From the IMG/VR virus record IMGVR_UViG_3300035034_000914, positions 1-21,575 of that record: DNA of 21,575 bases. One strand, 5' to 3'. Of the stretch, positions 4,023 through 21,575 are shown piece after piece. The translations under genes and the position numbers were made by a program. Every line of letters begins with the position of its first letter. Position 1 is the first letter of the stretch. Below the pieces are notes generated by a model. It made no database searches, was not told the origin of the DNA, and saw nothing but the letters and a program-made list of their open reading frames with translations. The DNA comes from a virus.

Positions 4023-4862
4023 ATGGCATTCAACTGGCTCGGCACTTTCCGACAGGGCTCCTGGCAGGCCTATCGACGCTTCATCCTCCAAGAGCGGAGG
4101 GACGTGGGCGAACGCATGGCGGTCATCCAAGCCGAGCTCACCCGCATTGGTGAGGTCACCGTGTACTACGCTTCGACCGTCGATGATGAGGGCAACGAGG
4201 TGGTGTCCGAGACCCGAGAGGGTTTTGAGGTGTCCCCCAATTCAAGCCTGTGCAAGTTGATCCAGGCGTACATCGCAATGGGCGGCAACCCCTTCGACAT
4301 CTCGTTGTTCCTGACCCCTGACTCGACGGTCATCCTCGACGGCACCGACCCCGACCAACCGGGCACTGAGGGTCAACCCAACGGCGGCGTGGTGTACCCG
4401 AAATCTGGGGCCTACACACCCGGTGAACGGTACGAGGGCGGCTACATGACCCTCAAGAAGTACCTGCCTGCCCGCATCGGAGGACGCAAGGCGGTTGAGG
4501 ACGCCAACGTGGCCACACGCATCGACGCAGGCCGTCGATGGCTCCAGAAAGAGATTCGGTACAAGAGGAGCAACCTCGAGGCACGCATCATCAAGCTCTG
4601 CGACTTGCGAGAACAACTCCTGGATGAACTGGACGCCATCACGATGGCTGTGGCGGGGATGTCGTCCGAGCTTCCAAACCTGGATGAGGAGCGGTACGAC
4701 AAGGAGTTGTCCGTCGCTTTCGTCGCCTACACCCTCGACTCCATCTTCTACACGATGGATGAGAACAACACGCCCGACTTCACCACGGAGAACACTGAAA
4801 CCCTTGGCTTCTACCCCTTCCTCTTGTCTGACGACGAGGAGGAAGCCAATACCGCTCTGTGA
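4023..4862 (+). CDS. Structural protein of unknown family, probable baseplate component
   Basis: The protein has 279 residues. The ATG directly follows the stop of the previous gene, with a good ribosome site (CGGAGG at 4009-4014, 8-nt spacer). Residues 1-45 are a basic, aromatic helix (FRQGSWQAYRRFILQERRDV). Residues 85-150 form a Pro/Gly/Asp-rich middle. Residues 150-215 form a strongly charged helix (RIDAGRRWLQKEIRYKRSNL, then KLCDLREQLLDELDAI) likely to pack as a coiled coil. The C-terminus is acidic (DDEEE). There is no signal peptide or membrane segment. I do not recognise the family. Its place between the 850-aa virion protein and the gp25-like wedge suggests a tail-tip or baseplate part; that is inference. 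Confidence 0.8.
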   Translation: MAFNWLGTFRQGSWQAYRRFILQERRDVGERMAVIQAELTRIGEVTVYYASTVDDEGNEVVSETREGFEVSPNSSLCKLIQAYIAMGGNPFDISLFLTPDSTVILDGTDPDQPGTEGQPNGGVVYPKSGAYTPGERYEGGYMTLKKYLPARIGGRKAVEDANVATRIDAGRRWLQKEIRYKRSNLEARIIKLCDLREQLLDELDAITMAVAGMSSELPNLDEERYDKELSVAFVAYTLDSIFYTMDENNTPDFTTENTETLGFYPFLLSDDEEEANTAL

Positions 4863-4872
4863 CGGTGCCGAG

Positions 4873-4893
4873 CCTATACCCACCGCCCGGTAG
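4873..4893 (+). promoter_or_regulatory. CCTATA-N-GTAG leader motif
   Basis: CCTATAC is at 4873-4879 and GTAG at 4890-4893, with exactly 12 nt between CTAT and GTAG, as in the copies at 12505 and 18191. GTAG continues as GTAGGAG, which serves as the ribosome site of the gene at 4903. CGGTG (4863-4867) and CACCG (4881-4885) could pair and place CCTATA in a 13-nt loop. It occupies the 40-nt gap after the TGA at 4860. A promoter or processing/leader role is inferred. Confidence 0.45.
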
Positions 4894-4902
4894 GAGTTCA
4901 TC

Positions 4903-5205
4903 ATGCCCACACTTCGAGATCGAGTCCGCCGCCTGGCCGCCCAGGAGCCGACCCTTCGAGCACCCCTCAAGGCTGCCCTTGCCATCACGGGCTCCGACGC
5001 GGACGAGCTCAAGTGGGCTGCGGACCAGATCGATGCCGCCAACGACATCCTTCAAGATGTCGTGGACACCCTCGATGCTCGCCACAGCGGCTCCTCTCTG
5101 GCGGACACCCACTCCGACGTGGCGAAGGTGGTGAACACCATCCGCCGTGAGACCAGCCGGGACCTCGACTCAGCAGCCAAAGTGATTCGGAGGGTTTCTC
5201 GGTGA
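4903..5205 (+). CDS. Small helical protein of unknown function ahead of the baseplate wedge gene
   Basis: The protein has 100 residues and is highly charged and predicted mostly helical. It has a basic N-terminus (PTLRDRVRRLAAQEPTLRAP), an acidic middle (DADELKWAADQIDAANDILQ) and a basic C-terminus (SAAKVIRRVSR). There are no cysteines, membrane segment or signal peptide. The ribosome site GTAGGAG (4890-4896) sits 6 nt before the ATG. The stop overlaps the next start as GTGA (4 nt), so it should be translationally coupled to the gp25-like gene. It could be a chaperone or a small baseplate subunit; I do not recognise a family and nothing in the sequence decides. Confidence 0.75.
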   Translation: MPTLRDRVRRLAAQEPTLRAPLKAALAITGSDADELKWAADQIDAANDILQDVVDTLDARHSGSSLADTHSDVAKVVNTIRRETSRDLDSAAKVIRRVSR

Positions 5206-9850: not shown

Positions 9851-11191
9851 ATGGGTCACGACTACGACGACAAGAAGAGCCTCCTCCCCTTCAACATCCC
9901 CCAGAACCCCTCTCCAGACACCGAGACGGGCCAGTCGTTTGAGCGGAACCAACAGGCTCTCACCAACGAGATCATGACGACCTTCCTGGCCGTCCTCCCC
10001 TCGAACTACGTCTCGAACACCAACGGCCCTTGGTACACCCTCCAGTTCCAGGCCATGGCAGAGCAACTCGCGGCCATCCAAATCGTCGGCCAGGAGGTCA
10101 ACAAGGACTCCGACTTCGACTTCACGCGACCCGAGTTCCTCTGGGAGGTGCTCGGGACCCTCGTGTTCCCTGCCGCCACGGAACGCGGAGGAGCCCCTCT
10201 TCTCGACGGCGACATCGACTACCGGGCGTTCCTCCACAAGATGGTGCTCCTGTTGCTCCAGGGATCCACTGCGGCGACCCTCGAGGAGGGGGCGGAGTGC
10301 TTGATCGACTCCCAGGTGGTGCTCGTCGAGAAGTTCCTCTCGAGCATCCAGCGGGATCCCAACGGTGCCTGGACCATCGACAACCAGTTTGAGGTCGAGC
10401 TCAACGTCCAAGGCTTCCCCGACGGGACAGACCCTTTCACCTTCCAGGAGAACCTGCTCCTCGTGATGCAGGCCCTCAAGCCCGCTCACATCCTGATTCA
10501 ACTCGCCTACGTGTTCGACGACGACTTCCGAGACGAGTTCGGCAACCTGTTCGACGACAGCGACGCGGTGACCATCGACGGTGGGATGCAATGGGAGATG
10601 TCGTCGTACTACTACGACGACCTCCGGAAAAACTGCTACGGAGCCAAGCAACTCTCGGGAGAGGGCGACACCCTCGCGGACAGGACGTTGTTCACCGACC
10701 CGGACGTGAGCTTCCTGAGCATCACCCAAGGAGCTGAGCTCCACATCCTGAGTGGGGTCAATGCGGGCCGCTACCGGGTCATCGACGTGCGGGCGTTCCC
10801 CGTCGGTGATGACACCACGGCTCGAGCCTACACGACCTCACCGACGGGCCTCACGGGTTCTGCAACGGTCGAGGGCGATGTCATCACAGACAGCACCCAG
10901 AACTGGGCTCTCGCCGAGGAGGGGGAACTCCTCACGTTCACGGCAGGACCGAACGCAGGCACGTACCGCATGGATGTGCTCCTGGGGCCTCTGGGAGGCC
11001 CGCTGGGCGACCCGGTCGCCACAGGCCCAGCCGACGAGGTGCGAGTCTCTCCGGCCATCCTACGGGTCGACAGACGCATGGATACGGCATCGGTGACCGG
11101 CCAGGCGTACACGGTGACGGTCGACCGGCTTGGTGTGCGAGGTCCGAAGACCCGCACCAGCGAGGACGTGTCGAGCCAGTTCTACCTCTGA
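9851..11191 (+). CDS. Baseplate protein in gpI position, possible fibre connector
   Basis: The protein has 446 residues and starts 2 nt after the J-like stop. The N-terminal 235 residues are helical ('FERNQQALTNEIMTTFLAVL', then 'WYTLQFQAMAEQLAAIQIVG'), which resembles tail protein I/YmfQ-type proteins. Those genes normally follow J and link the baseplate to tail fibres. A helical stretch ending 'LLLVMQALKPAHILIQLAYV' follows. The C-terminal third is beta-rich with two copies of a motif: 'GAELHILSGVNAGRYRVIDV' near residue 295 and 'GELLTFTAGPNAGTYRMDVL' near 355. The order wedge, J, then this protein supports the assignment, but sequence resemblance to gpI is weak by eye. Its last 10 nt overlap the end of the opposing gene on the minus strand, leaving no space for a terminator. 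Confidence 0.7.
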   Translation: MGHDYDDKKSLLPFNIPQNPSPDTETGQSFERNQQALTNEIMTTFLAVLPSNYVSNTNGPWYTLQFQAMAEQLAAIQIVGQEVNKDSDFDFTRPEFLWEVLGTLVFPAATERGGAPLLDGDIDYRAFLHKMVLLLLQGSTAATLEEGAECLIDSQVVLVEKFLSSIQRDPNGAWTIDNQFEVELNVQGFPDGTDPFTFQENLLLVMQALKPAHILIQLAYVFDDDFRDEFGNLFDDSDAVTIDGGMQWEMSSYYYDDLRKNCYGAKQLSGEGDTLADRTLFTDPDVSFLSITQGAELHILSGVNAGRYRVIDVRAFPVGDDTTARAYTTSPTGLTGSATVEGDVITDSTQNWALAEEGELLTFTAGPNAGTYRMDVLLGPLGGPLGDPVATGPADEVRVSPAILRVDRRMDTASVTGQAYTVTVDRLGVRGPKTRTSEDVSSQFYL

Positions 11192-11790
11192 GCATCCTGA
11201 CGGCACGCGGCCTTGGAACCCCACCGGGCCTTGTGCATCAACTTCGGACCGTTGTGGAGGGTGTCAGGGTAGTGGGGGCCGACCCCATTCTCCTCACGAG
11301 CCTTGTCGGTGGCAGCCTTGCGGGCTTCCTGCCAGTCAATGTGCTCGTGAGTGTTGCCGCGGGGCTCGGGGTTCGCGAGCTCCCATGCGGCGAGTTCGGC
11401 GTGGAACGCAGCCGAACGGGCCTCCCCATCCACCTTGAGACGCTTGGAGTGATCCCGGATGGTGCCCGCAAGTTCGGGGCGAAGCAGGGATGCGGGGGCG
11501 TCCTCGAGTTGGTGTCCCGCGACCATGGGGGCGATGGTGGCTCCACCGGTCGGATGGTTGATGCGGATGGAGACCCCACAGGCGGTCTCCACGAGATCCC
11601 ACTTGGGCTGCGGCCAAGGGACTTCCTCGCCGCTCCAGAGGGTGGCGGGTCCGAGCTTCGGTTCAGCGGTCGTACACTGGGGACACCAGAACCGCATGGT
11701 GATGCCACGGGAGGGCTGGTTCTGCCAACCACGCTCCACGAACATGTTCGCATCGCCTTCGAGTCCGCAGCCGTAGCACTTGATCTGCAT
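11182..11790 (-). CDS. Zinc-ribbon protein of unknown function
   Basis: The protein has 202 residues if started at the ATG at 11790. A second ATG at 11796 is possible, but AAGGGG (11798-11803, minus strand) sits only 1 nt from it and 7 nt from 11790. The N-terminus has a clear four-cysteine ribbon: C5-x2-C8 (CYGCG) and C36-x2-C39 (CPQC). The middle has 'WDLVETACGVSIRINHPTGG'. The C-terminal half is charged and helical (KRLKVDGEARSAAFHAELAA), and the protein ends with scattered His/Arg/Lys. Zinc ribbons of this kind bind nucleic acid or protein; no catalytic motif is visible. It lies 50 nt downstream of the uracil-DNA glycosylase gene on the same strand, so the two are probably co-transcribed. 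The open frame continues upstream to 12132, but only through a shadow of the glycosylase gene. Confidence 0.75.
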   Translation of the reverse strand: MQIKCYGCGLEGDANMFVERGWQNQPSRGITMRFWCPQCTTAEPKLGPATLWSGEEVPWPQPKWDLVETACGVSIRINHPTGGATIAPMVAGHQLEDAPASLLRPELAGTIRDHSKRLKVDGEARSAAFHAELAAWELANPEPRGNTHEHIDWQEARKAATDKAREENGVGPHYPDTLHNGPKLMHKARWGSKAACRQDAQR

Positions 11791-11797
11791 GGTCATT

Positions 11798-11803
11798 CCC
11801 CTT
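11798..11803 (-). promoter_or_regulatory. Shine-Dalgarno AAGGGG that decides the zinc-ribbon start
   Basis: Read on the minus strand the sequence is CAAGGGGA-ATG-ACC-ATG. The spacer is 1 nt to the first ATG and 7 nt to the second (11790), favouring the second. Confidence 0.5.
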
Positions 11804-11840
11804 GTGCTTCTACAACGCGGTTGGCCCGCGATTGGAACCC

Positions 11841-12443
11841 TTACATCGCAACCAGTCGGAGAACTTTCCCGAGGTCGGCCACGATGTGTTTGGCGGCGGT
11901 CTTGGCGGTGGAGGGGTTGTCCTTGTTCCGGAGCACGTAGGACGGGTGGTAGGTCACCACGAGGGGAGCCATGACTCCTGTGACCTTGTTCTCGTAGAGC
12001 CAGTCCTTCTTGCGGAGGTACCCCACAGCGGTGTCCGAGTTGTTGGTGAGGTAGCGACCCGCGACACCTCCGATGGCCAGGATGACTCGAGGGCGGATGA
12101 GAGCGAGTTGGGTGTGCAGGAACGGGGCACAAGACTCAATCTCGGCCTCGGTCGGGTCACGGTTCCCTGATGGGCGACACTTCACCAGGTTGAGGACGTA
12201 GATGTCCGCCCGCTTGAGACCCACGCGACGAAGGAACCCGTTGAGAAGTTCTCCGGCTGGCCCCGAGAAGGGTTCCCCGGTGCGGTTCTCCTCCTCCCCT
12301 GGAGCTTCCCCGATGACCACGATGGCGGCATTGGGGTCACCTGAGCCAAAGACGAGGCAGTTGCGTCCCTTTGAGAGGGAGCAGCGGGTGCATCCCTCAG
12401 CTTGGGATGCCTTCAGATAATCGAGGCGGTCTTGGGTGTACAT
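11841..12443 (-). CDS. Family 4 (4Fe-4S) uracil-DNA glycosylase
   Basis: The protein has 200 residues, the usual length for this family. It removes uracil from DNA, the first step of base-excision repair. Visible signatures are the catalytic-site motif GEAPGEEEN at 45-53, GEPFSGPAGELL at 56-67, and the active-site motif HPSYVLR at 166-172. The four cysteines that hold the iron-sulfur cluster are C18, C21 (CTRC), C89 (NLVKCRPSGNRDP) and C105. All expected motifs are intact, so it should be active. Phages use such enzymes to repair deaminated cytosine or mis-incorporated dUTP. It is read leftward from a 105-nt gap shared with the fibre gene at 12549. Its ribosome site is weak (GCAGG, 3-4 nt from the ATG). 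A zinc-ribbon gene follows on the same strand. Confidence 0.95.
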   Translation of the reverse strand: MYTQDRLDYLKASQAEGCTRCSLSKGRNCLVFGSGDPNAAIVVIGEAPGEEENRTGEPFSGPAGELLNGFLRRVGLKRADIYVLNLVKCRPSGNRDPTEAEIESCAPFLHTQLALIRPRVILAIGGVAGRYLTNNSDTAVGYLRKKDWLYENKVTGVMAPLVVTYHPSYVLRNKDNPSTAKTAAKHIVADLGKVLRLVAM

Positions 12444-12504
12444 GAGCCTGCTTACGCGGCGGAGACGCCCCGAGGACCCCCCTTCCGGGTGACGCGGTGG
12501 CTTC

Positions 12505-12525
12505 CCTATAGGCGGGGACCTGTAG
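12505..12525 (+). promoter_or_regulatory. CCTATAG-N9-TGTAGAG leader motif
   Basis: CCTATAG (12505-12511), 9 nt, then TGTAGAG; 8 nt later comes the ribosome site. The copy at 18191 has the same two blocks with the same 9-nt and 8-nt spacings, although the spacer bases differ. CTATA and TGTAG can also pair (5 bp with one G-U), so a leader hairpin is an alternative to a promoter. Confidence 0.5.
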
Positions 12526-12532
12526 AGTCCCC
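12514..12532 (+). other. GC-rich hairpin in the fibre-gene leader
   Basis: The stem is GGGGAC/GTCCCC (6 bp) with loop CTGTAGA. The GTAG half of the leader motif is in the loop. No T-run follows, so it is not a typical intrinsic terminator; it would lie just upstream of the ribosome site. Confidence 0.4.
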
Positions 12533-12548
12533 CTCGAGAGGAGCCTGG

Positions 12549-15500
12549 ATGCCCGCTCGGATCCGCAGCACGATCCTCGCAGTCGATGTCGATGAAGCGA
12601 GCCGCAACGACGCCGTCGTTGGGTCCGTCGTGTCATTGGTGTCTCTGGACGCGGCTTCGACCTACGCTTGGGCCATCACCTTCGCTCCCGAAGGTTCGAC
12701 GGCCACTTTCACGGGGTCGAGTTCTGCCATCTCCCCCGGCACGTTCTCGGTGGACTTGGAAGGGCCGTACCTCATTCGGCTCATCATCGACGCCACGCTT
12801 CCGACGGAGGATGTCCAGTACGTCCGAGTTCGAGCCCTCACGGCCTTTGGTGAGCTCACCTTGGTGTCCGCCGGCGAACGCCGCGACGACACAGGGGTCA
12901 TTCCCGTCGATGTGGATGTCGAAGGTTGGGCGAACGAGCAGAACGCGAACATCCAGACCCTCTTGGGCTTCATCAAGCCCATGGTGGCGTCTGGGCGGAT
13001 GCTCTACGTCGACTCCAACGACGGCACGTCCGAGTACGCGGACCACGCCACCATTCAGGCGGCCATCACCGACGCCAACTCGAGCACCCCGAGTGCGGCG
13101 GAACCTTGGGTCATCCTGGTTCGCCCGGGTACCTACACCGAAGACCTGACCTTCTTCCCCTGGGTCCACGTCCTGGGCTGGCCCGGCAACCCTGACGGAC
13201 AGACCTCCGAAGCTGTTCGGGTCATGGGAACCCACACGGCGTTCTCGACGGCGGCACCGGAACGAACCCTACTGGCGAACCTCCACATCGAGAACGCCAC
13301 GGACACGACCTCGGCGGCCATCACGAAGACCGGCCTCGGCACACTTCGGGTGTTCGGCTCCAAAGTGGAGTCCAGTGGGTCGGATGCGAGCCAGGGACCC
13401 GCCATCCTGTTGTCGGCGGGCGGCCTCGATGTCGTTCGAGGTGTGTTGACCCAGAACTCTGCCAACGGTGCAGGGACCTACGCCCTCGTCCAGGACGGTA
13501 GCAACACCACCTCGACGTTCAATGACTCGACCCTTCAGGGGCCGAGCGGTGTGTTGCTCAATGACGGCGGCCCTGTCTTCAACGTCGTCTGTGAGATGTT
13601 CCACACGAACCTCACGACAGCCCACGCCGCTGGGACAGGTATTGCTGGCCTCCCGACCCAGCTCACCCTTCAAGGGTGTGAGCTCAACGTGGCGGGTGCG
13701 TATGGCATTGCCATCAACCCTGGGTCGGATGTCTACGCAGGAGCTGTGGCAGCGGACGTTCGGTTCACCAACATCAACGCGGACATCTTCTTCGAGGTCA
13801 CTGGGCTCGGCGGCACCCGCGAGCTCTCCCTTGGTTCGGTCATCTACGGTGCCACGGTGTTCCCAGGTGGAAGCCCGACCTACGCGGCCACCACCAAGTC
13901 AAAGACCAACTTCTACGACAACACGTTCTCTGGCCTGCTCTCCTCGAACGTGCAGGATGCCATCGACGAGTTGTCGGGGTCGGCGGCCATTGCTCCGCTC
14001 GTCTACCACGAGAACATGCCCGAGGTTCCCGACGACACGGTGAGGTACCGGGGTTGGGCATCGGTCACCTGCCAGCTCATCGCCATCCGCGTCTACATGG
14101 AGTCGCCGAACACCCAGGGCAACTACACCCTCACCGTCACCAACAACGCCACGGGCAACACGGTGCTCTCGGCGGCGTCTTTCGACATGAACACCTTGGT
14201 GGCCCAGACGCCGACCCCGGTGGCGTTGACGGCTGTACCCGCCGACCTCCTGTTCGCCTCCCTCGACCGCTGGACCATCACCCTCACTTCGGATGACCCA
14301 GGTTTCGACGGAGAGTCCGTCTACGTGGCCTTGGTGTTCAACTCAACGTCGGGTGCCCCGGCGGTTGTCCAGGACTGGGCGACGACGCTCCTCATCGGGA
14401 ACATCTCGGGTGGAACGAACCCTGAGCTCACGCCTGGCGACGTGATGGTGTTCGGCACGAGCCCTGTGGCAGTGGTGTCTGGAGCAGGCCAAGGTCGGCT
14501 CCGGTACAACCAGGGCACGGTGGAGTTTGAGGTCTCGGTCGATGGCGGCCCTTGGTCGGGCATCGGTTCAGGTGGTGGTGGCTCACCCTTCATTCACAAG
14601 AACGTGCCTCCGCTCCCCGGGAACACCTACCGGTATGAGGGGTGGACCCCCATCGACGCGGTGGTTGGGGACATCTCGGTAGCGATGGCGACGGTGAACA
14701 CCCAGGGCACCTACCAGGCGACGTTCACGAACGAGACCACGGGCCAGACGATGCTCGTCGGCCCTGACTTCGCCATGAACACCTTGGTCGCGGGTGTCGT
14801 GACCTCGCTCTCGTTGACGGGCACGGTTGCGGATCTCACGTTCAGTGCTGGGGACGAGTGGTCCGTCGAGTTCATCTCCGACGACTTGTCGTTCGACGGT
14901 GTGGGAGTCTACTTCTCCATCCTGTTCGGTGCGGACAGCACGATCACGGTGTCGGGTTCGCCGCCAGACGATGACCAGTTCGAAGTGACCGTTTTCCCGA
15001 ACAACACCGCCAACCACCTGTTCTTCCCGCCCTACGACTGCACCGTGACGGCCATCAAGGTGTACGGCCAAACCACGCCGACGACGGCGGGCACCTACTT
15101 GATGTCCGTCAAGAACCTCGACTCCGCCGCCAACCTGTTGTCTTTGGCTGCGTTCGACCTCACGGGGCTCCCCCCAGCGAGCTTGACCGATGCCGGGTTG
15201 ACCCTGTTCCCTGCGAACCTCCAGGTGCCGGAGGGAACACCCGTCCGGTTCCAGTTCATCTCGGACAACGCGGACCTGGTGGCTTCGGGTCTCTACGCTC
15301 AGATCATCTACATCGGTGGCTCGAGCGACGACGACCAGTTCGAGATGTCGGTGTTCCCGAACAACACCGTCAACCACATCATGTTCGCCCCCTACGACAT
15401 GCAGATCCTCGCCATCAAGGTGTACGGCCAGGTCAGCCCAACGACAGCAGGGGTCTACACGCTGGCAGTCGAGGACTTGGATGGGTCGAACAACCTGTTG

Positions 15501-15683
15501 TCGGCGGCGACGTTCGACATGACGAGCCTCTCTGCGGCCACCCTCACGACGATGTCGTTGACGGGGACAGGGGCGAACCTTCAAGTCCCGGAGGGCACAG
15601 CCCTCCGGTTCCAACTCGTGTCTGACAATGCGGATTTGGTGGCCTCCGGCCTCTACGCCCAGATCATCTTCAGGAGTCAATGA
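12549..15683 (+). CDS. Tail fibre/spike protein A: PKD-like, beta-helix, four repeated C-terminal domains
   Basis: The protein has 1044 residues from the ATG at 12549, which has the strong ribosome site GAGAGGAG 5 nt upstream. The frame is open back to 12402, but that part overlaps the glycosylase and has no ribosome site. Residues 28-105 are PKD/Ig-like (YAWAITFAPEGSTATF, DLEGPYLIRL). Residues 150-470 are a right-handed beta-helix of the NosD/DUF1565/pectate-lyase type (HATIQAAI, VILVRPGTYTEDL). A linker FYDNTFSGLLSSNVQDAIDEL follows, seen in many fibres. The C-terminus holds four related domains of about 120 residues (about 480-605, 679-800, 807-926, 927-1044). Residues 615-660 form a linker (WATTLLIGNISGG). 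It is expected to bind or depolymerise a surface glycan; no catalytic residues can be named. The first 480 residues are paralogous to the fibre at 18233. Confidence 0.85.
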   Translation: MPARIRSTILAVDVDEASRNDAVVGSVVSLVSLDAASTYAWAITFAPEGSTATFTGSSSAISPGTFSVDLEGPYLIRLIIDATLPTEDVQYVRVRALTAFGELTLVSAGERRDDTGVIPVDVDVEGWANEQNANIQTLLGFIKPMVASGRMLYVDSNDGTSEYADHATIQAAITDANSSTPSAAEPWVILVRPGTYTEDLTFFPWVHVLGWPGNPDGQTSEAVRVMGTHTAFSTAAPERTLLANLHIENATDTTSAAITKTGLGTLRVFGSKVESSGSDASQGPAILLSAGGLDVVRGVLTQNSANGAGTYALVQDGSNTTSTFNDSTLQGPSGVLLNDGGPVFNVVCEMFHTNLTTAHAAGTGIAGLPTQLTLQGCELNVAGAYGIAINPGSDVYAGAVAADVRFTNINADIFFEVTGLGGTRELSLGSVIYGATVFPGGSPTYAATTKSKTNFYDNTFSGLLSSNVQDAIDELSGSAAIAPLVYHENMPEVPDDTVRYRGWASVTCQLIAIRVYMESPNTQGNYTLTVTNNATGNTVLSAASFDMNTLVAQTPTPVALTAVPADLLFASLDRWTITLTSDDPGFDGESVYVALVFNSTSGAPAVVQDWATTLLIGNISGGTNPELTPGDVMVFGTSPVAVVSGAGQGRLRYNQGTVEFEVSVDGGPWSGIGSGGGGSPFIHKNVPPLPGNTYRYEGWTPIDAVVGDISVAMATVNTQGTYQATFTNETTGQTMLVGPDFAMNTLVAGVVTSLSLTGTVADLTFSAGDEWSVEFISDDLSFDGVGVYFSILFGADSTITVSGSPPDDDQFEVTVFPNNTANHLFFPPYDCTVTAIKVYGQTTPTTAGTYLMSVKNLDSAANLLSLAAFDLTGLPPASLTDAGLTLFPANLQVPEGTPVRFQFISDNADLVASGLYAQIIYIGGSSDDDQFEMSVFPNNTVNHIMFAPYDMQILAIKVYGQVSPTTAGVYTLAVEDLDGSNNLLSAATFDMTSLSAATLTTMSLTGTGANLQVPEGTALRFQLVSDNADLVASGLYAQIIFRSQ
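13986..14353 (+). repeat. Fibre A C-terminal domain, copy 1 (diverged)
   Basis: Copy 1 includes RYRGW, SPNTQGNYTLTVTNNATGNT, SFDMNTLVAQ and TSDDPGFDGESVYVALVFNS. It matches copy 2 at protein level (NTQG.Y..T.TN..TG.T, DDl.FDG..VY....F) and copies 3 and 4 more weakly. The likely fold is a beta-sandwich; this is a domain repeat rather than a DNA repeat. Confidence 0.6.
14583..14946 (+). repeat. Fibre A C-terminal domain, copy 2 (diverged)
   Basis: Copy 2 includes TYRYEGW, VNTQGTYQATFTNETTGQTM, DFAMNTLVAG and SDDLSFDGVGVYFSILFG. It is preceded by a Gly-rich hinge (GSGGGGS). It is close to copy 1 in protein sequence. Confidence 0.6.
14967..15326 (+). repeat. Fibre A C-terminal domain, copy 3 of a 360-bp tandem repeat
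   Basis: It starts at the codons for DDDQFE and is exactly 120 codons long. It shares long near-identical DNA stretches with copy 4, for example around TTCCCGAACAACACCG and AAGGTGTACGGCCA. Confidence 0.8.
15327..15683 (+). repeat. Fibre A C-terminal domain, copy 4 of a 360-bp tandem repeat
   Basis: It starts at DDDQFEMSVFPNNTVNH and ends with the gene's stop. Both copies 3 and 4 end in VPEGT..RFQ..SDNADLVASGLYAQII. The unbroken 360-bp period and conserved DNA point to a recent in-frame duplication. Confidence 0.8.
15672..15676 (+). promoter_or_regulatory. Shine-Dalgarno AGGAG that decides the start of fibre M
   Basis: Two ATGs overlap the previous stop (ATGATG at 15680-15685). AGGAG is 3 nt from the first and 6 nt from the second, which favours 15683. 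Confidence 0.5.
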
Positions 15684-17740
15684 TGGCGACCTATCCTTCA
15701 AACCTCGACGCGAAGGCCAACCTCGGTGCAGGTGGTGGCGGCTCCGTCATCGTCGAGGACGAGGGCGGTGTCGTAGGCGGAGGTCCACATACCACTCTCG
15801 ACTTCGTGGGTGCTGGCGTCACGGCCACCGATGCGGGTGGTGGCACCGCAACCATCACCATCCCTGGCGGGGGTGGCAGCGACCTCGCGACCACACTGGG
15901 TCTGGGAAATGTCACTGGCGGCACCAACATCATCGTCACCAGCGGGGACACCCTCCAAGGAGAAGACAACCCCGCGGGGGGTGGTGACGACCTCCTCATC
16001 CGGGCAGGCAATGCAGGTGGTGGAGGTGGTGATGACGGCGGCGACATCTACCTCACCCCAGGCTCTGAATCTGGTGGCGGCAACGACGGTGAAATCTACG
16101 CTCAAGGAACACTCAACGGGTCTGGCGACGCCATCTTCGACGGGTACGTGGGCATCAAGGAGACCACCACACAACCCAGCCCACCCTCCACACAGGGTGC
16201 CATCTGGGTGCGGACGTTTGTGGGCACCGCCGACAATGGGGGCTATTTCCTCGGGGGCGACGGCCGGAACACGCCGCTGAATGGGGGCTGGCGGGGGATG
16301 GTTCTCCACGCCAGCCAACTCACAACCACTGGGTCTGCCATCGGGGTGTCCCAGGCCACCATGTTTGCGTTCCAGAGTGTTCAGCCTACTGCTGGAGACA
16401 CCCTCTCCATCACGGATGGTTCCACGACACGGACGTATGGGGCCACTTCGGGTGGGGATGTGCAGTACACCATTGGTGGCACGGTGCAGGAGACCCTCAG
16501 CAACCTGGCTGCAGCCATCACGGGTGATGGCTCGGGGTTGTGGGAGGCGGTGACCGTCCCCGGGTTCTCGGGGAACGCTTTCGGGGGTGTGATCATCTAC
16601 CGCGAGACCCAATCGGCGGACTCTTTCGAGGACCGCCTCTACGGGACCTTTGCTTCCCCCACCCTCGTCCGGCAGTGGGACTACGGCACCTCTCCGGACT
16701 ACCGGCAGCACCCCGGAGCGGGGTCTTCCTTCGACACCCAAGTTCCTGCGGCAGACCCCGGTGTGAAGTCCTTCGGGTTTGGTGTACGGAACAACATCAC
16801 CCTCATGAACGGGGACACCTACATCACGGCCTTCGGGGGTCGTGTGGTGCGTGCGGACAAAGCAAAGACCTCTGGCACCTGGCGTGACATCGGACCTGTG
16901 GATGCCGTGCGGGTGGTCTTTGTCTCCAAAAGCGGGGACAACGACAACGACGGGCTCTCACCTGAAAACGCGAAGTTGACGATCAGTTTCGCGAACACGG
17001 CGGCGAACGGTCTTTCACCTGGGTCGGGCAACCAGGTGATCATCCATGTTCTGGATGCCGGCGAGTACGCAGGAGCAAGCCTGAGCGATTACGTGAGCCT
17101 TCAGGCTCCCGATGCGACAGTCACCTCGACCCTCACTCTCGGGGATGAAACCACCAACAAGATTTTCGCCTTCCGACCGGCAGCGGGCACCATCAACATC
17201 TCCGCAGGTGAGCGAGCCTGGCTTGATGTGGATGATGTTCTCGTCCCCGTAGGCGTCGCCATCAGCGTGAGTGGGGAGGGGTACCTGCGGGTTCGGAACA
17301 TGTCGAACGGCAGCGGCACCAACGTCACTGTAGGTGCCGCTGGGGTGTGCCACGCCCACATCGACAGGATGATTCTGACGGCCAACAGCGGCACCGGCAT
17401 CAACAACGGCGGGGTGTTCAAGGGCTACGTGGGGGAGATCGATGACGGCGGGTTTCTGGGAGTGTTCGCCATCACCAACAACGGCACGATGCACCTGGTG
17501 GCCAACCGTGTCGTCGGCGGGACTGGTGGTGGAGCAGCCATCACGGGCACTGGCACCGCCAACATCCAGATCGGTGAGTTGATCGGGCCTATCTTGGGAG
17601 CTGGCACTCGAATCTACGGGGGTGCCTACCGTCCCGCAACCGGGGGAGACTGGACCAACCCAGACCCCACGACCATCGGCGAAGCCATCGACCGCATTGC
17701 CGCAGCAGTTGTCGCCGGCACCGCCGGTCCCATCGCATAG
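15683..17740 (+). CDS. Tail fibre protein M with Gly-rich N-terminus and DUF1565-like beta-helix
   Basis: The protein has 685 residues from the ATG at 15683 (686 from 15680); its start overlaps the stop of fibre A, so the two are likely coupled. Residues 20-60 carry a module (VEDEGG...LDFVGAGVTATDAGGG) that also occurs near the C-terminus of fibre B at 18233. Next come LATTLGLGNVTGG, a linker type shared with fibre A, and a Gly/Asp-rich stretch (LLIRAGNAGGGGGDDGGDIY) resembling one in fibre B. Residues 215-320 are a beta domain containing TVQETLSNLAAAI. From about 411 a beta-helix begins with the DUF1565-type start 'VVFVSKSGDNDNDGLSPENA', followed by INISAGERAWLDVDD and many N/T/G-rich turns. 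The C-terminus is helical (IGEAIDRIAAAVVAG), perhaps a trimerisation or assembly tip. It is a likely adsorption component; its receptor is unknown. Confidence 0.82.
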   Translation: MATYPSNLDAKANLGAGGGGSVIVEDEGGVVGGGPHTTLDFVGAGVTATDAGGGTATITIPGGGGSDLATTLGLGNVTGGTNIIVTSGDTLQGEDNPAGGGDDLLIRAGNAGGGGGDDGGDIYLTPGSESGGGNDGEIYAQGTLNGSGDAIFDGYVGIKETTTQPSPPSTQGAIWVRTFVGTADNGGYFLGGDGRNTPLNGGWRGMVLHASQLTTTGSAIGVSQATMFAFQSVQPTAGDTLSITDGSTTRTYGATSGGDVQYTIGGTVQETLSNLAAAITGDGSGLWEAVTVPGFSGNAFGGVIIYRETQSADSFEDRLYGTFASPTLVRQWDYGTSPDYRQHPGAGSSFDTQVPAADPGVKSFGFGVRNNITLMNGDTYITAFGGRVVRADKAKTSGTWRDIGPVDAVRVVFVSKSGDNDNDGLSPENAKLTISFANTAANGLSPGSGNQVIIHVLDAGEYAGASLSDYVSLQAPDATVTSTLTLGDETTNKIFAFRPAAGTINISAGERAWLDVDDVLVPVGVAISVSGEGYLRVRNMSNGSGTNVTVGAAGVCHAHIDRMILTANSGTGINNGGVFKGYVGEIDDGGFLGVFAITNNGTMHLVANRVVGGTGGGAAITGTGTANIQIGELIGPILGAGTRIYGGAYRPATGGDWTNPDPTTIGEAIDRIAAAVVAGTAGPIA

Positions 17741-17752
17741 AGGAGACCGCAC

Positions 17753-18172
17753 ATGCCCTTCAACTCCCCCATGTCCGCTGTCCTCGCTCGAGGCCGCCGC
17801 AACATCATCACCATCTCCGAGACCCAGGCCATCGACAACCCCGGCGGCACGGTGGCCCTTGGCACGTTCCAGTTCAACCCGGCCACATTCGGGGAGCAGG
17901 CGACCTACCTGTTTCAGGCGATGATCTCGACTTCCAAGGGCTCCATCACGGGCTCGGTCCAGCTCTACAACGTCACCGACGCCGAAGCGGTCACTGGCAC
18001 CCTCTCAACGAGCTCGACGACACCCAGCAACCAGTCTGCATCCCTCACCATGGGCTCCGCCGCCGGCAACCTCAAGGACACCACCAAGACCTATGAGGCT
18101 CGCATCTCCGTCACGGGTTCCGATGCTTCGGACATCCTCTCCGTAGGCTCCATCCGGCTTCTCGTCCTCTGA
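17753..18172 (+). CDS. Small fibre-associated beta-rich protein
   Basis: The protein has 139 residues. An excellent ribosome site AGGAG (17741-17745) lies 7 nt before the ATG, and the gene starts 12 nt after the stop of fibre M. A short basic N-terminus (SAVLARGRRNIITISETQAI) is followed by alternating strands rich in Thr and Ser (STSKGSITGSVQLYNVTDAE; YEARISVTGSDASDILSVGS). It has no cysteine, signal peptide or membrane segment. The pattern suggests a single jelly-roll or Ig-like domain, which could be a fibre tip, a head decoration or a bacterial-surface binding protein. Its location between two fibre genes favours a fibre accessory. The family is not recognised. Confidence 0.75.
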   Translation: MPFNSPMSAVLARGRRNIITISETQAIDNPGGTVALGTFQFNPATFGEQATYLFQAMISTSKGSITGSVQLYNVTDAEAVTGTLSTSSTTPSNQSASLTMGSAAGNLKDTTKTYEARISVTGSDASDILSVGSIRLLVL

Positions 18173-18190
18173 CCGTGGGGCGGTTGCCGT

Positions 18191-18211
18191 CCTATAGCCC
18201 GCCGAGTGTAG
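18191..18211 (+). promoter_or_regulatory. CCTATAG-N9-TGTAGAG leader motif
   Basis: CCTATAG (18191-18197), 9 nt, then TGTAGAG (18207-18213), 8 nt, then the ribosome site GGAGAGGA (18222-18229). This repeats the 12505 copy with identical spacing and a different spacer sequence. It follows the TGA at 18170 by about 20 nt. GGCGG and CCGCC flanking CCTATA could pair. Confidence 0.5.
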
Positions 18212-18232
18212 AGCCTTTTACGGAGAGGATGG

Positions 18233-21200
18233 ATGGCCGCCATCATCAAGAGCACCGTCCTACCGGTCCTACACCCCATCACGGGTGTGGTCCGCAGTCC
18301 CGTGTCAGGTGCGAGCAGGGACGATCTCTACGACGGTGATGTGGTCACCCTGTCCACGGTCTCGGTGGCCACCAGCTACGCTTGGACGCTGGTGTACCAG
18401 CCCGAAGGCTCTGTGGCCGCCTTCTCGGGAGACGTGACCACAGCGGCACCCGGTAGCATCACCCTCGACCTCGAGGGCCCGTACCTGGTCCGTCTCACCA
18501 CGGATCTCGGCCTCCCGACGGAAGCCAGCCAGTTCGTCCGCCTCCGCTGGCTCACCGAGTTCGGTCGGCTCACCCTTGTCGCCGCAGGGGAAGAGAACAA
18601 CTCGGGCATCCCCATCCCCGTCGACCAGACCCCGGATGGGTGGACGAACGACCAGAACCGGAACATCACGACCCTCCTCGCTTTCGTGGCGAAGGTGTCG
18701 AGCTCGGGACGGGTGCTCTACGTCGACCAGAACGGGACGCCCACCGACACCATCCGAGGCTACGCCGACTACGAGACCATCCAAGAGGCCATTAACTACG
18801 CGGTGACGCAGACACCTTCGGCTTCCAACCCCTGGGTCGTTCTGGTACGCCCTGGGTTCTTCACCGAGGACTTGGCCCTCGCCGCCCATGTCCATGTCTA
18901 TGGGTGGCCGGGGAACGTTTCCGGGGATGACGACAACCGTGTCGTTCGCATTCGGAACGACACAACGGCCCACACGGCGAACCTTGCCAACGCAGGCGAC
19001 CGGGTGATGTTGGCGAACCTCACTCTCGAGAACGTGAGCAACGGCTCCCTCGCCGTCGTGAACAAGACGGGCGATGGCGAACTCCACATCTTCCGGTGCT
19101 CCCTCACCAACCAGGGCACCGATGCGTCCCAAGGCCCCGCTCTTCGAGTGGCCGCCGGCACGGTAGAGGCCAACGACAGCCAGTTCCTCCTGAACCCGGC
19201 TGCGGGAACGGGTCAACCCGCAGTCCGCGTCCTCGGCACAGGCACCACACTCAACCTGACCCACTGCCAGGTCATCGGGCCGACAGGCATCATCGCCGAG
19301 GAGGACACCTTCGTCCTTGCTCGCGACAGCCAGTTCACGGGCACAGGCTTGGGAGCCTCTACCGGTGTCCTGACCGACGCGGCGTCCTTCACCCTCGAGT
19401 ACTGCAACGTCCGAGCTCCGCTGGTCACCTACCCTCTCCAGGCTCACACCTCGGGGGCTGCCCTCACGGGAGACCTGGCCCTGTTCGTCCGGTGGACCCG
19501 CATTGAAGAGGGAGGCATCCTCTACGACTCCACCGGGGTCTCGGGGACCTCGACACTCAAGCTTGGGGCGGTCGAGTACAGCACGTTGGTTCTGACGGCG
19601 GCTCCCGACGTGTTCGAGGCGACGGTCAAGGCCAAGTCCATCTTCTACGACAACGGGGTGTCGGGGCTCACCGCCGAGGATGTTCAGAGTTCCCTCGACG
19701 AGATTCATGCCCTGGCGATTGCTGTTCAGACCCTCGACGACGCCTACGACGGTGGTGTCGGTGGCGGCATCGGGCGGACCATCACGGCAGACGCAGGGGC
19801 CGTACAAATCATCGGCTCTGGGACACCCACGGACCCACCGCTTGCCGGGGACACCGATGGCAAGCTCCAGGTGGTCTCGAACGTCCAACTCGGAGCCATC
19901 GACTCTCCCGAGATCGACATCGACCCGAACCCGTATGGGAACGGTGCCCTCATCTCGATGGGCCGCTTCATCGCAGCGGGCAACACCCCCTTCGGCTCGA
20001 CCGTTGGGCTCCTGGCCCGCTCCACGGGGACACCGGACTTCAACAACTACAACCTCCGACTCCAGACCGAGAGCTCGGCGGGTGGCACCCTCATTGGCCG
20101 GCTCATCGTCCAAGGTGGGGACGGTCTCGCCAACGGGGCTGGGACACCTCTGGCCTCGTCCATCTACATCCAGGCGGGAACCACCCAAGCGGGTCCGAAC
20201 AGTGGCGGTGATGTGTTCCTGGCCCCAGGGGATGCGGGTGGTGGAGGAGTCGCGGGCAGCGTGGTCTTCGTTCGCCCACAGGATGCAACCCCGGCTGTCC
20301 TCACGGCGAGCGGAGCCTTTGTTGGGGGTGTGGCGGGGACCATCCGCTTCGCAACGAGCATGGGGGCCATCGAGGTTGATGTCCTGGTGGGCGACATCCT
20401 GGCCACGGTGCTCGCAGCGTTCAACGCCACGGGTCAGGTCACGGCGGTGGACTCGGGTGGTGGGGTCATTGAACTCACCACGACGACCACAGGCCCGAAC
20501 GCCGAGGTCCACTACCTGAACGACACGGTGGGCGGCCTACTGGACACGGCTCTTGGCGGGTTCGACGGACAGGCCCAGACGAATGGCACCTGGCCATCGA
20601 CGGTGGCCTTCCGAGTCACGGCTGACCAGGAGATCACCATCGGAGCAGGTGCTCCCAACCCGATGATCTACGACGCGGTCACAGGCAAGCTCACAGTGCC
20701 TGGCCTCATCGACCCCACCGGGCTCATCCTCGACCAGAACGTCCCACTCGACCCTGGATTGGGCAAAGGCATCCTGTTCATCGGGGACGGCACGGCGGGG
20801 ACTACCCAGGGCAATTTCTACTACCGGTACGAGACGGGTGGCCTCCAGGACATCACCACTGCCGTCATCGGCTCGAGTGGGTTCGCGGTCGAAGACGAGG
20901 GGGCCCCCGTTCCGAACGGCCCGTTCACCGTCCTCAACTTCACGGGGGCGGCGGTTGTTGCGACTGACGCGGGTGGCGGCAAGGTCAACGTCACTGTCAC
21001 AGCGGGTGGAGGCTCCGTCGCAGGGGTGGCTCAAGAGCTCTACGACGACACAGACTTCGCGTTCGGTGGGGGTGTGTCCTCGGTCACCCTGGCGGACACG
21101 CCTGACACCAACGCGGCCTTGGTGGGTCTCTACATGGTGTTCCGCAACTCGTTGCTCGACATGAACAACGTGTCTCCTGCGTTGCCCATCAACGACAGCC

Positions 21201-21289
21201 AGTACCGCATCAACGGAAACGACTTGGAGATTGGGACCGACATCACGGCCTCAAGCAACAACTACCGCATCATCTACCCAACCACCTGA
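18233..21289 (+). CDS. Tail fibre/spike protein B, paralogue of fibre A with a different C-terminus
   Basis: The protein has 1018 residues. ATG at 18233 follows GGAGAGGA; an out-of-frame ATG at 18229 is ignored. Residues 40-120 are PKD-like (SYAWTLVYQPEGSVAAFSGD; DLEGPYLVRL). Residues 150-480 are a beta-helix (YETIQEAI, VVLVRPGFFTEDL, VHVYGWPGN). The linker FYDNGVSGLTAEDVQSSLDEI follows. This whole part aligns with fibre A. The C-terminal half is different. It has a Gly-rich module (IYIQAGTTQAGPNSGGDVFL), a domain with GDILATVLAAFNATGQVTAV, and VEDEGAPVPNGPFTVLNFTG with ATDAGGG near 885-930. The end module 'LVGLYMVFRNSLLDMNNVSP ... YRIINGN'-like (ending NNYRIIYPTT) resembles common fibre receptor-binding tips. 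It is an adhesin or spike with probable glycan binding; no catalytic residues can be assigned. Confidence 0.85.
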   Translation: MAAIIKSTVLPVLHPITGVVRSPVSGASRDDLYDGDVVTLSTVSVATSYAWTLVYQPEGSVAAFSGDVTTAAPGSITLDLEGPYLVRLTTDLGLPTEASQFVRLRWLTEFGRLTLVAAGEENNSGIPIPVDQTPDGWTNDQNRNITTLLAFVAKVSSSGRVLYVDQNGTPTDTIRGYADYETIQEAINYAVTQTPSASNPWVVLVRPGFFTEDLALAAHVHVYGWPGNVSGDDDNRVVRIRNDTTAHTANLANAGDRVMLANLTLENVSNGSLAVVNKTGDGELHIFRCSLTNQGTDASQGPALRVAAGTVEANDSQFLLNPAAGTGQPAVRVLGTGTTLNLTHCQVIGPTGIIAEEDTFVLARDSQFTGTGLGASTGVLTDAASFTLEYCNVRAPLVTYPLQAHTSGAALTGDLALFVRWTRIEEGGILYDSTGVSGTSTLKLGAVEYSTLVLTAAPDVFEATVKAKSIFYDNGVSGLTAEDVQSSLDEIHALAIAVQTLDDAYDGGVGGGIGRTITADAGAVQIIGSGTPTDPPLAGDTDGKLQVVSNVQLGAIDSPEIDIDPNPYGNGALISMGRFIAAGNTPFGSTVGLLARSTGTPDFNNYNLRLQTESSAGGTLIGRLIVQGGDGLANGAGTPLASSIYIQAGTTQAGPNSGGDVFLAPGDAGGGGVAGSVVFVRPQDATPAVLTASGAFVGGVAGTIRFATSMGAIEVDVLVGDILATVLAAFNATGQVTAVDSGGGVIELTTTTTGPNAEVHYLNDTVGGLLDTALGGFDGQAQTNGTWPSTVAFRVTADQEITIGAGAPNPMIYDAVTGKLTVPGLIDPTGLILDQNVPLDPGLGKGILFIGDGTAGTTQGNFYYRYETGGLQDITTAVIGSSGFAVEDEGAPVPNGPFTVLNFTGAAVVATDAGGGKVNVTVTAGGGSVAGVAQELYDDTDFAFGGGVSSVTLADTPDTNAALVGLYMVFRNSLLDMNNVSPALPINDSQYRINGNDLEIGTDITASSNNYRIIYPTT

Positions 21290-21368
21290 CCCGGTAGGGG
21301 TCCTATCCCCTGGGACAGACAGACAAGAAACTCTCGTGCTGTGAAACTTCCAGACTGAAAACACCTCC
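21290..21368 (+). promoter_or_regulatory. Relatively AT-rich gap between fibre B and the next frame
   Basis: This 79-nt gap is less GC-rich than its surroundings from about 21320 on (ACAAGAAACTC, GTGAAACTTCC, CTGAAAACACC). It contains the short tandem ACAGACAGACA at 21315-21325 and the hairpin at 21296. No Shine-Dalgarno sequence precedes the ATG at 21369. It may hold a promoter; no -35/-10 pair is convincing. Confidence 0.3.
21296..21311 (+). terminator. Possible terminator-like hairpin after fibre B
   Basis: AGGGG (21296-21300) pairs with CCCCT (21307-21311) around the loop TCCTAT. It lies 7 nt after the stop of fibre B. There is no T-run, so intrinsic termination would be weak. The loop contains CCTAT, the first half of the leader motif, so this could instead be a degenerate copy of that element. 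Confidence 0.3.
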
Positions 21369-21575
21369 ATGGCCGGTGGCATCGCTTATTCACAACTCCG
21401 TGCGAGTTCTACCGTTGCCCTCGCTGGTCTTGAGTCGTACACCGACGGTGGACTGGGGCGAACTCCATCCGCGTGGGTACAGGGGCCGGTCTGGCTCTTG
21501 GAACCGGTGGTGTTGTCATCGACCCGACGGGAACGGTCACGTTCACCACGGCGACGCACACCTACAACGCAGGTG
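21369..21575 (+). CDS. Partial fibre-like gene with apparent frameshift, 3'-truncated by window edge
   Basis: From ATG 21369 the frame reads MAGGIAYSQLRASSTVALAG, then LESYTDGGLG, after which it turns into Arg/Pro/Ser-rich sequence typical of a shadow frame, though with no stop before the window ends. From 21455 the frame one base back reads GANSIRVGTGAGLALGTGG, then VVIDPTGTVTFTTATHTYNA, which is typical fibre sequence. That second frame has a TGA at 21431 and no good start. Adding one G to the GGGG at 21455-21458 would join the two into one smooth protein. Either the base is missing (sequencing or true mutation) or the ribosome slips back one base here. The ATG lacks a ribosome site, so even the start is uncertain. 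Confidence 0.4.
   Translation, partial: MAGGIAYSQLRASSTVALAGLESYTDGGLGRTPSAWVQGPVWLLEPVVLSSTRRERSRSPRRRTPTTQV

Follow-up and report, generated by a model that had tools for sequence, protein, structure and literature searches.

Promoters of sigma54 (RpoN) carry the -24/-12 consensus TGGCAC-N5-TTGCW, those of bacterial ECF sigma factors combine a -35 block of the AAC type with a -10 block of the CGTA type 16-17 nt apart, and the consensus of sigma28 (FliA) is TAAA-N15-GCCGATAA. Late promoters of phage T4 have TATAAATA at -10 and are read by gp55/gp33 with the host RNA polymerase. The nvRNAP promoters of jumbo phages include TATG for the late genes of phiKZ and AACA-N6-TA/G for those of AR9 (PMC7598289), and jumbo phages without a polymerase of their own have been reported to encode sigma factors, which probably redirect the host polymerase (PMC7824862, PMC13282480). 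At the level of translation, cluster K mycobacteriophages have start-associated sequences, which are tied to translation start; about half of these sequences have 17-bp inverted repeats (PMC3203893).

The element described here has the layout CGGT[A/G]G-N5-CTAT, then about 12 nt, a softer GGTAG and the ribosome site, and it is probably a phage-specific promoter, most likely of late (virion) genes, in a clade of large GC-rich phages. No report of the CGGTAG-N5-CTAT motif was found in the open-access papers covered. It resembles sigma54 promoters in its two short blocks with a fixed 5-nt spacer, the GG of its upstream block, its predicted -24/-12 placement and the lack of a -35. However, its -12 block is a near-invariant CTAT, without the GC of sigma54 promoters. 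Like the T4 late promoters it would serve virion genes as a phage-specific promoter that lacks a -35 block, but its sequence is another one and a second block, one helical turn further upstream, is obligatory. The original prediction had set the element apart from T4 late and plain sigma-70 promoters alike, and rightly so: after CTAT, the bases at +4 to +6 are mostly C or G and do not fit TATAAATA, a conserved block is absent from the sequence 15-20 nt ahead of CTAT or of CGGTAG, the element does not fit TTGACA-N16..18-TATAAT, and no sigma-70-type site was found at 11000-21575 of the DNA analysed. The nvRNAP promoters are also short phage-specific signals of very large phages, but the present element is longer, is detectable from sequence alone and occurs in phages in which a multisubunit RNA polymerase was not found in the nine records searched. 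Similarly, start-associated sequences are repeated, oriented and placed just upstream of many start codons, whereas the core of our element lies further upstream, ahead of the ribosome site, and has no such repeats. The 16-17 nt spacing of ECF promoters is unlike N5, and these promoters resemble instead a second promoter class considered below.

The window, that is, the whole stretch of 21,575 nt that was analysed, is an IMG/VR virus record in its own right and had no match in named phage DNA. It encodes baseplate proteins and two fibre-like proteins that are 40% identical across their first ~490 residues (see the table). For the product of fibre gene 1 there were no matches in Pfam or PHROGs, and GenBank phages gave no match to the fibre protein. 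Residues 176-291 of fibre gene 2 have a weak pectinesterase-like match (PF01095, below cut-off), and its product is possibly a carbohydrate-binding or -cleaving fibre. Divergent from fibre gene 1 lies a uracil-DNA glycosylase gene (11841-12443, minus strand; PF03167, E=3.6e-38).

Ahead of the two fibre genes, the original prediction had described the pair CCTATAG-N9-TGTAGAG with a gap of 8 nt to the ribosome site, and this arrangement is exact at 12505 and 18191. The copies read CCTATAGGCGGGGACCTGTAGAG (12505-12527, plus strand) and CCTATAGCCCGCCGAGTGTAGAG (18191-18213, plus strand); 8 nt past them are GAGAGGAG and GGAGAGGA, respectively, with the ATGs at 12549 and 18233. In the strict form, with up to three mismatches allowed, two occurrences against 0.46 expected in the window are only mildly surprising. 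The looser CCTATA-N8..14-GTAG had three matches in the window against 0.00 in 100 shuffles, the third being at 4873-4893 with an ATG at 4903, 30 nt downstream. It had also been claimed that the blocks and their spacing alone are conserved. The blocks are indeed kept while spacers and flanks have diverged, but this description overlooked the most conserved half of the element, CGGT[A/G]G, which in both fibre-gene copies is present as CGGT(G/T)G, 5 nt ahead of CTAT. When this half is included, GGT-N7-CTAT has four copies in the window, all on the plus strand (reversed control pattern, 0), and CGGT-N7-CTAT likewise has four, all between genes, against 0.19 in dinucleotide shuffles. One of them, copy 3, sits in the 40-nt gap behind a gene that ends at 4862.

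Table. Coordinates of the element copies, genes and related features; positions refer to the window unless a contig or record is named.
Feature	Position	Strand	Remark
CGGTGG upstream block, copy 1	12495..12500	+	predicted near -24
CCTATAG, copy 1; core CTAT 12506-12509	12505..12511	+	predicted near -12
TGTAGAG downstream block, copy 1	12521..12527	+	predicted at or just past transcript start
Ribosome site GAGAGGAG, fibre gene 1	12536..12543	+	
Fibre-like gene 1, 1044 aa	12549..15683	+	paralogue of fibre gene 2
CGGTTG upstream block, copy 2	18181..18186	+	
CCTATAG, copy 2; core CTAT 18192-18195	18191..18197	+	
TGTAGAG downstream block, copy 2	18207..18213	+	
Fibre-like gene 2, 1018 aa	18233..21289	+	
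Copy 3, CGGTGC-N5-CTAT-N12-GTAG	4863..4893	+	ends 9 nt before ATG 4903
Copy 4 (weaker), CGGTAG-GGGTC-CTAT	21292..21306	+	degenerate downstream block; next ATG 21369
Class-B promoter candidate of uracil-DNA glycosylase gene, GGGGGT-N19-CGTA	12453..12481	-	not significant alone, 0.38 expected by chance
~30-residue leader (G023, G008, G006, G013, G018, G021)	e.g. L060:1011-1739, G023 121011-121739		sometimes within longer frames
LR745208.1 element, examples	record positions 1629, 13223, 15318		

The same element forms the leader of relatives of the fibre and baseplate proteins, and a position weight scan found its shorter form, CGGTAG-N5-CTAT, many times over in the large contigs G006 and G008. 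Related large-phage contigs hold 10-45 copies each, roughly 7-20 times the shuffled expectation, although these contigs are related and many are incomplete, and their counts are not independent. For CGGT-N7-CTAT, the numbers against dinucleotide shuffles were 29 against 1.68 in G008, 31 against 1.60 in G006, 45 against 3.10 in G023, 35 against 2.98 in G013 and 21 against 2.38 in G021. When two-part motifs ahead of called genes were counted without a template, CGGT-N7-CTAT also came first in G008, G006, G023, G013 and G024, and in G021 and G018 it shared the first place or came close to it. Most copies lie in gaps, although gaps make up only 3-15% of these contigs, and nearly all gap copies of the core are directed at a gene on the same strand; as genes were called by a simple ORF rule, the counts inside genes are upper bounds. 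Thus the core is concentrated between the genes of the relatives and not within them, which is the enrichment that the original prediction had proposed to look for. For the exact long form, 2.9 million viral contigs yielded 15 matches in 13 stretches, 14 of the 15 in gaps, although a single AT-rich sequence accounts for three of the 15, which may be due to chance. The remaining match, assigned to an over-long ORF by the ORF rule, is the fibre leader already known from L200. A reversed-pattern control in the same contigs gave 12 matches, with 11 inside ORFs and one in a gap.

The architecture of the element is rigid. In 28 aligned instances, CGGT[G/A] lies 11 to 7 nt before CTAT, and the T at -8 is invariant. 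Between CGGTAG and CTAT in gaps, the spacer was N5 in 72 cases, N4 in none and N6 in one (class-A contigs covered, G006 excepted), and spacing-shifted controls came to 5 in total against 120. Where single changes are tolerated, they mostly affect the last A and G of CGGTAG. A logo of 120 de-duplicated copies has no conserved block upstream as far as -60, and therefore no -35, and a moderate GG at +15/+16. The TGTAGAG block of the fibre leaders is real, but across relatives it is the softest of the three parts. It can merge with the ribosome site in its GGTAG form, and its GGT, at +15 to +17, stays in place where the ribosome site lies further off (76% G at +16). CTAT precedes the start codon by a median of 34 nt, and the most conserved part of the element lies ~29-50 nt ahead of that codon. 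Counted from the C of CTAT, no ribosome site begins at 12-17 and 24 begin at 18-19, an abrupt onset at +18.

The original prediction, that the element is a promoter or other recognition site, is borne out as far as a recognition element goes, given its presence at dozens of genes, its rigid spacing and its location in gaps. From the directly observed motif, rigid spacing, location, orientation, abundance and conservation we infer a promoter role, together with a start site, a timing and a reader. The abrupt onset of ribosome sites at +18 would be most simply explained by a transcript start some 10-15 nt past CTAT, at or just ahead of GGTAG. Such a start would leave only a short leader and would place CTAT near -12 and CGGTAG near -24. 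CTAT would then be a -10/-12 element, its TAT like the first three bases of TATAAT, and CGGTAG, one helical turn upstream, would be bound by the same rigid protein unit. The genes downstream of the element in G023 and G008 include those of fibre homologues and of large virion-type proteins as well as many whose products share a 30-residue leader, and a late class is the likeliest for the genes served. It is not exclusive, because one of the downstream genes in G023 encodes a helicase.

The same positions might instead reflect a signal in the RNA, such as a translation enhancer, a processing site or a protein-binding site in the leader, for which cluster K mycobacteriophages and their start-associated sequences offer a parallel. 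The element is always near start codons, GGTAG can merge with the ribosome site, and a translation or RNA-processing signal at these positions would yield many of the same statistics. However, a rigid two-block layout whose most conserved part is away from the ribosome site is not easily reconciled with such a role, the leaders have no conserved RNA structure and the window has no Rfam matches; we consider it unlikely. A separate reading, in which GGTAG-N5-CTATC forms an RNA hairpin with the function of a terminator, an attenuator or a single-strand promoter, is very improbable. On inspection of the sequence GGTAG and CTATC can indeed form four to five pairs, including G-U, around a five-base loop, and the original prediction had proposed a hairpin of CTATA with TGTAG. 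However, CTAC, which would replace the G-U by a G-C pair and improve the hairpin, occurs once against 72 cases, and therefore pairing is not what is conserved. Furthermore, in 21 gap copies the inner pair has T, A or C in place of its G, opposite an unchanged C, and the leader RNAs have the folding energies of shuffled sequences, with folds that differ between leaders.

That the window copies are a mere relic of the fibre gene duplication is improbable in the extreme. The similarity of the two fibre proteins is what such a relic would predict, but further copies precede the unrelated genes at 4903 and 21369 and occur throughout the related contigs, with diverged spacers and flanks. The copies at unrelated genes refute duplication as a full explanation and bear out the wider use that had been suspected. 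Two other candidates were also rejected. A T7-like promoter (CTATAG) does not agree with the base after CTATA, which is not reliably G, nor was a T7-type polymerase found in the nine records searched. Mimicry of a tRNA D-arm was suggested by one tRNA-like match in G013 (CCTATAGCTCAGTTGGTAG), but the element has no consistent D-stem; ARAGORN found no tRNA in the window.

If the element is a promoter, as we think probable, its reader would be the host RNA polymerase with a phage-encoded specificity factor, and the sigma-encoding jumbo phages (PMC7824862, PMC13282480) fit this explanation but do not test it. A phage-encoded or modified polymerase had also been proposed as the reader; none was found, in searches that were incomplete. 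For the multisubunit enzyme (PF00562) there was no match in nine records, with the control positive in 14/14 genomes, although divergent split subunits could escape such a search and the contigs may be incomplete. The T7-like enzyme (phrog_414) also had no match in the nine records, with the control positive in only 1/14 genomes, and PF00940 was uninformative, as it had no match anywhere, controls included. The DNA-binding domain of sigma54 (PF04552) had no match at E<=10 in the nine large phage records, with the control positive in 9/14 genomes. It is conceivable, though we would not favour it, that a phage factor unrelated to sigma54, perhaps of the sigma70 class or a wholly new protein, guides the host polymerase to -24/-12 promoters with an invariant 5-nt spacer. 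If true, this geometry would have arisen independently of sigma54.

One candidate factor would be an ECF-like sigma protein of these phages, which is divergent and has an additional domain at its N-terminus. A search for sigma region 2 found an RpoD-like protein in G013 and a divergent family of ~300-residue proteins in G008, G021 and G023. The family reaches Pfam sigma region 2 only below the cut-off, its profile matches a sigma-H factor (E=0.0015), and its best Foldseek matches are mostly ECF sigma factors, at E values of at least 0.05. In a predicted model (mean pLDDT 68, pTM 0.30), an N-terminal domain of the beta-beta-beta-beta-alpha type is followed by a helical core like that of sigma-2 and by a helix-turn-helix at the C-terminus. 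That this family (alignments A1/A2) itself reads the element, with region 2 binding CTAT and either the N-terminal domain or the helix-turn-helix binding CGGTAG, is a narrower form of the promoter reading and, taken as a whole, a doubtful one. Of five smaller contigs to which only the sigma gene led, most have more copies of the element than of the reversed control (12 against 1, 8 against 1, 9 against 3, 4 against 1 and 3 against 0), and the G023 sigma gene is in an element-free region, as expected of an earlier gene. However, distant homologues occur in G031, G032 and LR745208, where the element is absent, and a second motif class in G023, GGGGTTC-N16-TCCGTA, has the normal ECF -35/-10 layout that the N5 element lacks. 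The link between element and sigma protein, a co-occurrence in near relatives, is weak, because distant homologues go without the element and the second class is at least as good a fit for an ECF-type sigma; we make no claim for this family as the reader of the N5 element. Comparing the genes shared by contigs produced no clear DNA-binding candidate for that role, and among bacterial genome contigs none was found to encode the family. Beside the sigma-like gene in G008 and G021, frames in L124 and L123 encode a short protein (YVYVIQSQ..GFHYVGMTTDPKRRLRQHNGEI) that is GIY-YIG-like by its motif and possibly an endonuclease.

The element offers a map of transcription units, drawn from sequence only, for a group of large phages that is not represented in culture. 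If the geometry is confirmed, the promoter would be compact and rigidly spaced, its reading would need neither a -35 block nor sigma54, and its candidate readers could be tested gene by gene. With the help of the element, contigs of this phage group could also be recognized and linked.

The second two-part motif, with ordinary -35/-10 spacing, occurs in other regions of the same phages. In G023 its spacer is N16 in all 22 of 22 copies, and the two classes fall mostly into different 20-kb bins. The element separates two promoter classes that for the most part occupy distinct regions within a genome. The corresponding motif is GGTTCCC-N13-GACGTAA in G013 and G028, and GGGGGGT-N~16-ACGGGTA, in few copies, in G008, G006 and G026; in G031 the class takes forms with TTCCGTATA. 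Lineage-specific motifs that are promoter-like are TGCGGTTG or GGGATCG ~16 nt before TTCCGTATA in G031 (~30 gap copies, e.g. L163:4367) and ATAATTTCAC-N13-TTTGTATAAAAGG in G029 (nine copies, e.g. L195:7392).

The shared N-terminus mentioned above, of ~30 residues, reads T(A/S)xDRxxLIRLASTLPxGSxERRxILAGL and begins many otherwise different proteins; it may serve for capsid targeting or be a prohead signal that is cleaved. Finally, LR745208, the nearest named record by baseplate protein, is without the CGGTAG-N5-CTAT element. This 485-kb phage (LR745208.1) has an element of its own, CGATTTCnCTAAAA-N16-CCGATAGG (CTAAAA-N16-CCGATAGG), upstream of ~25 genes, which is close to the sigma28 (FliA) consensus.
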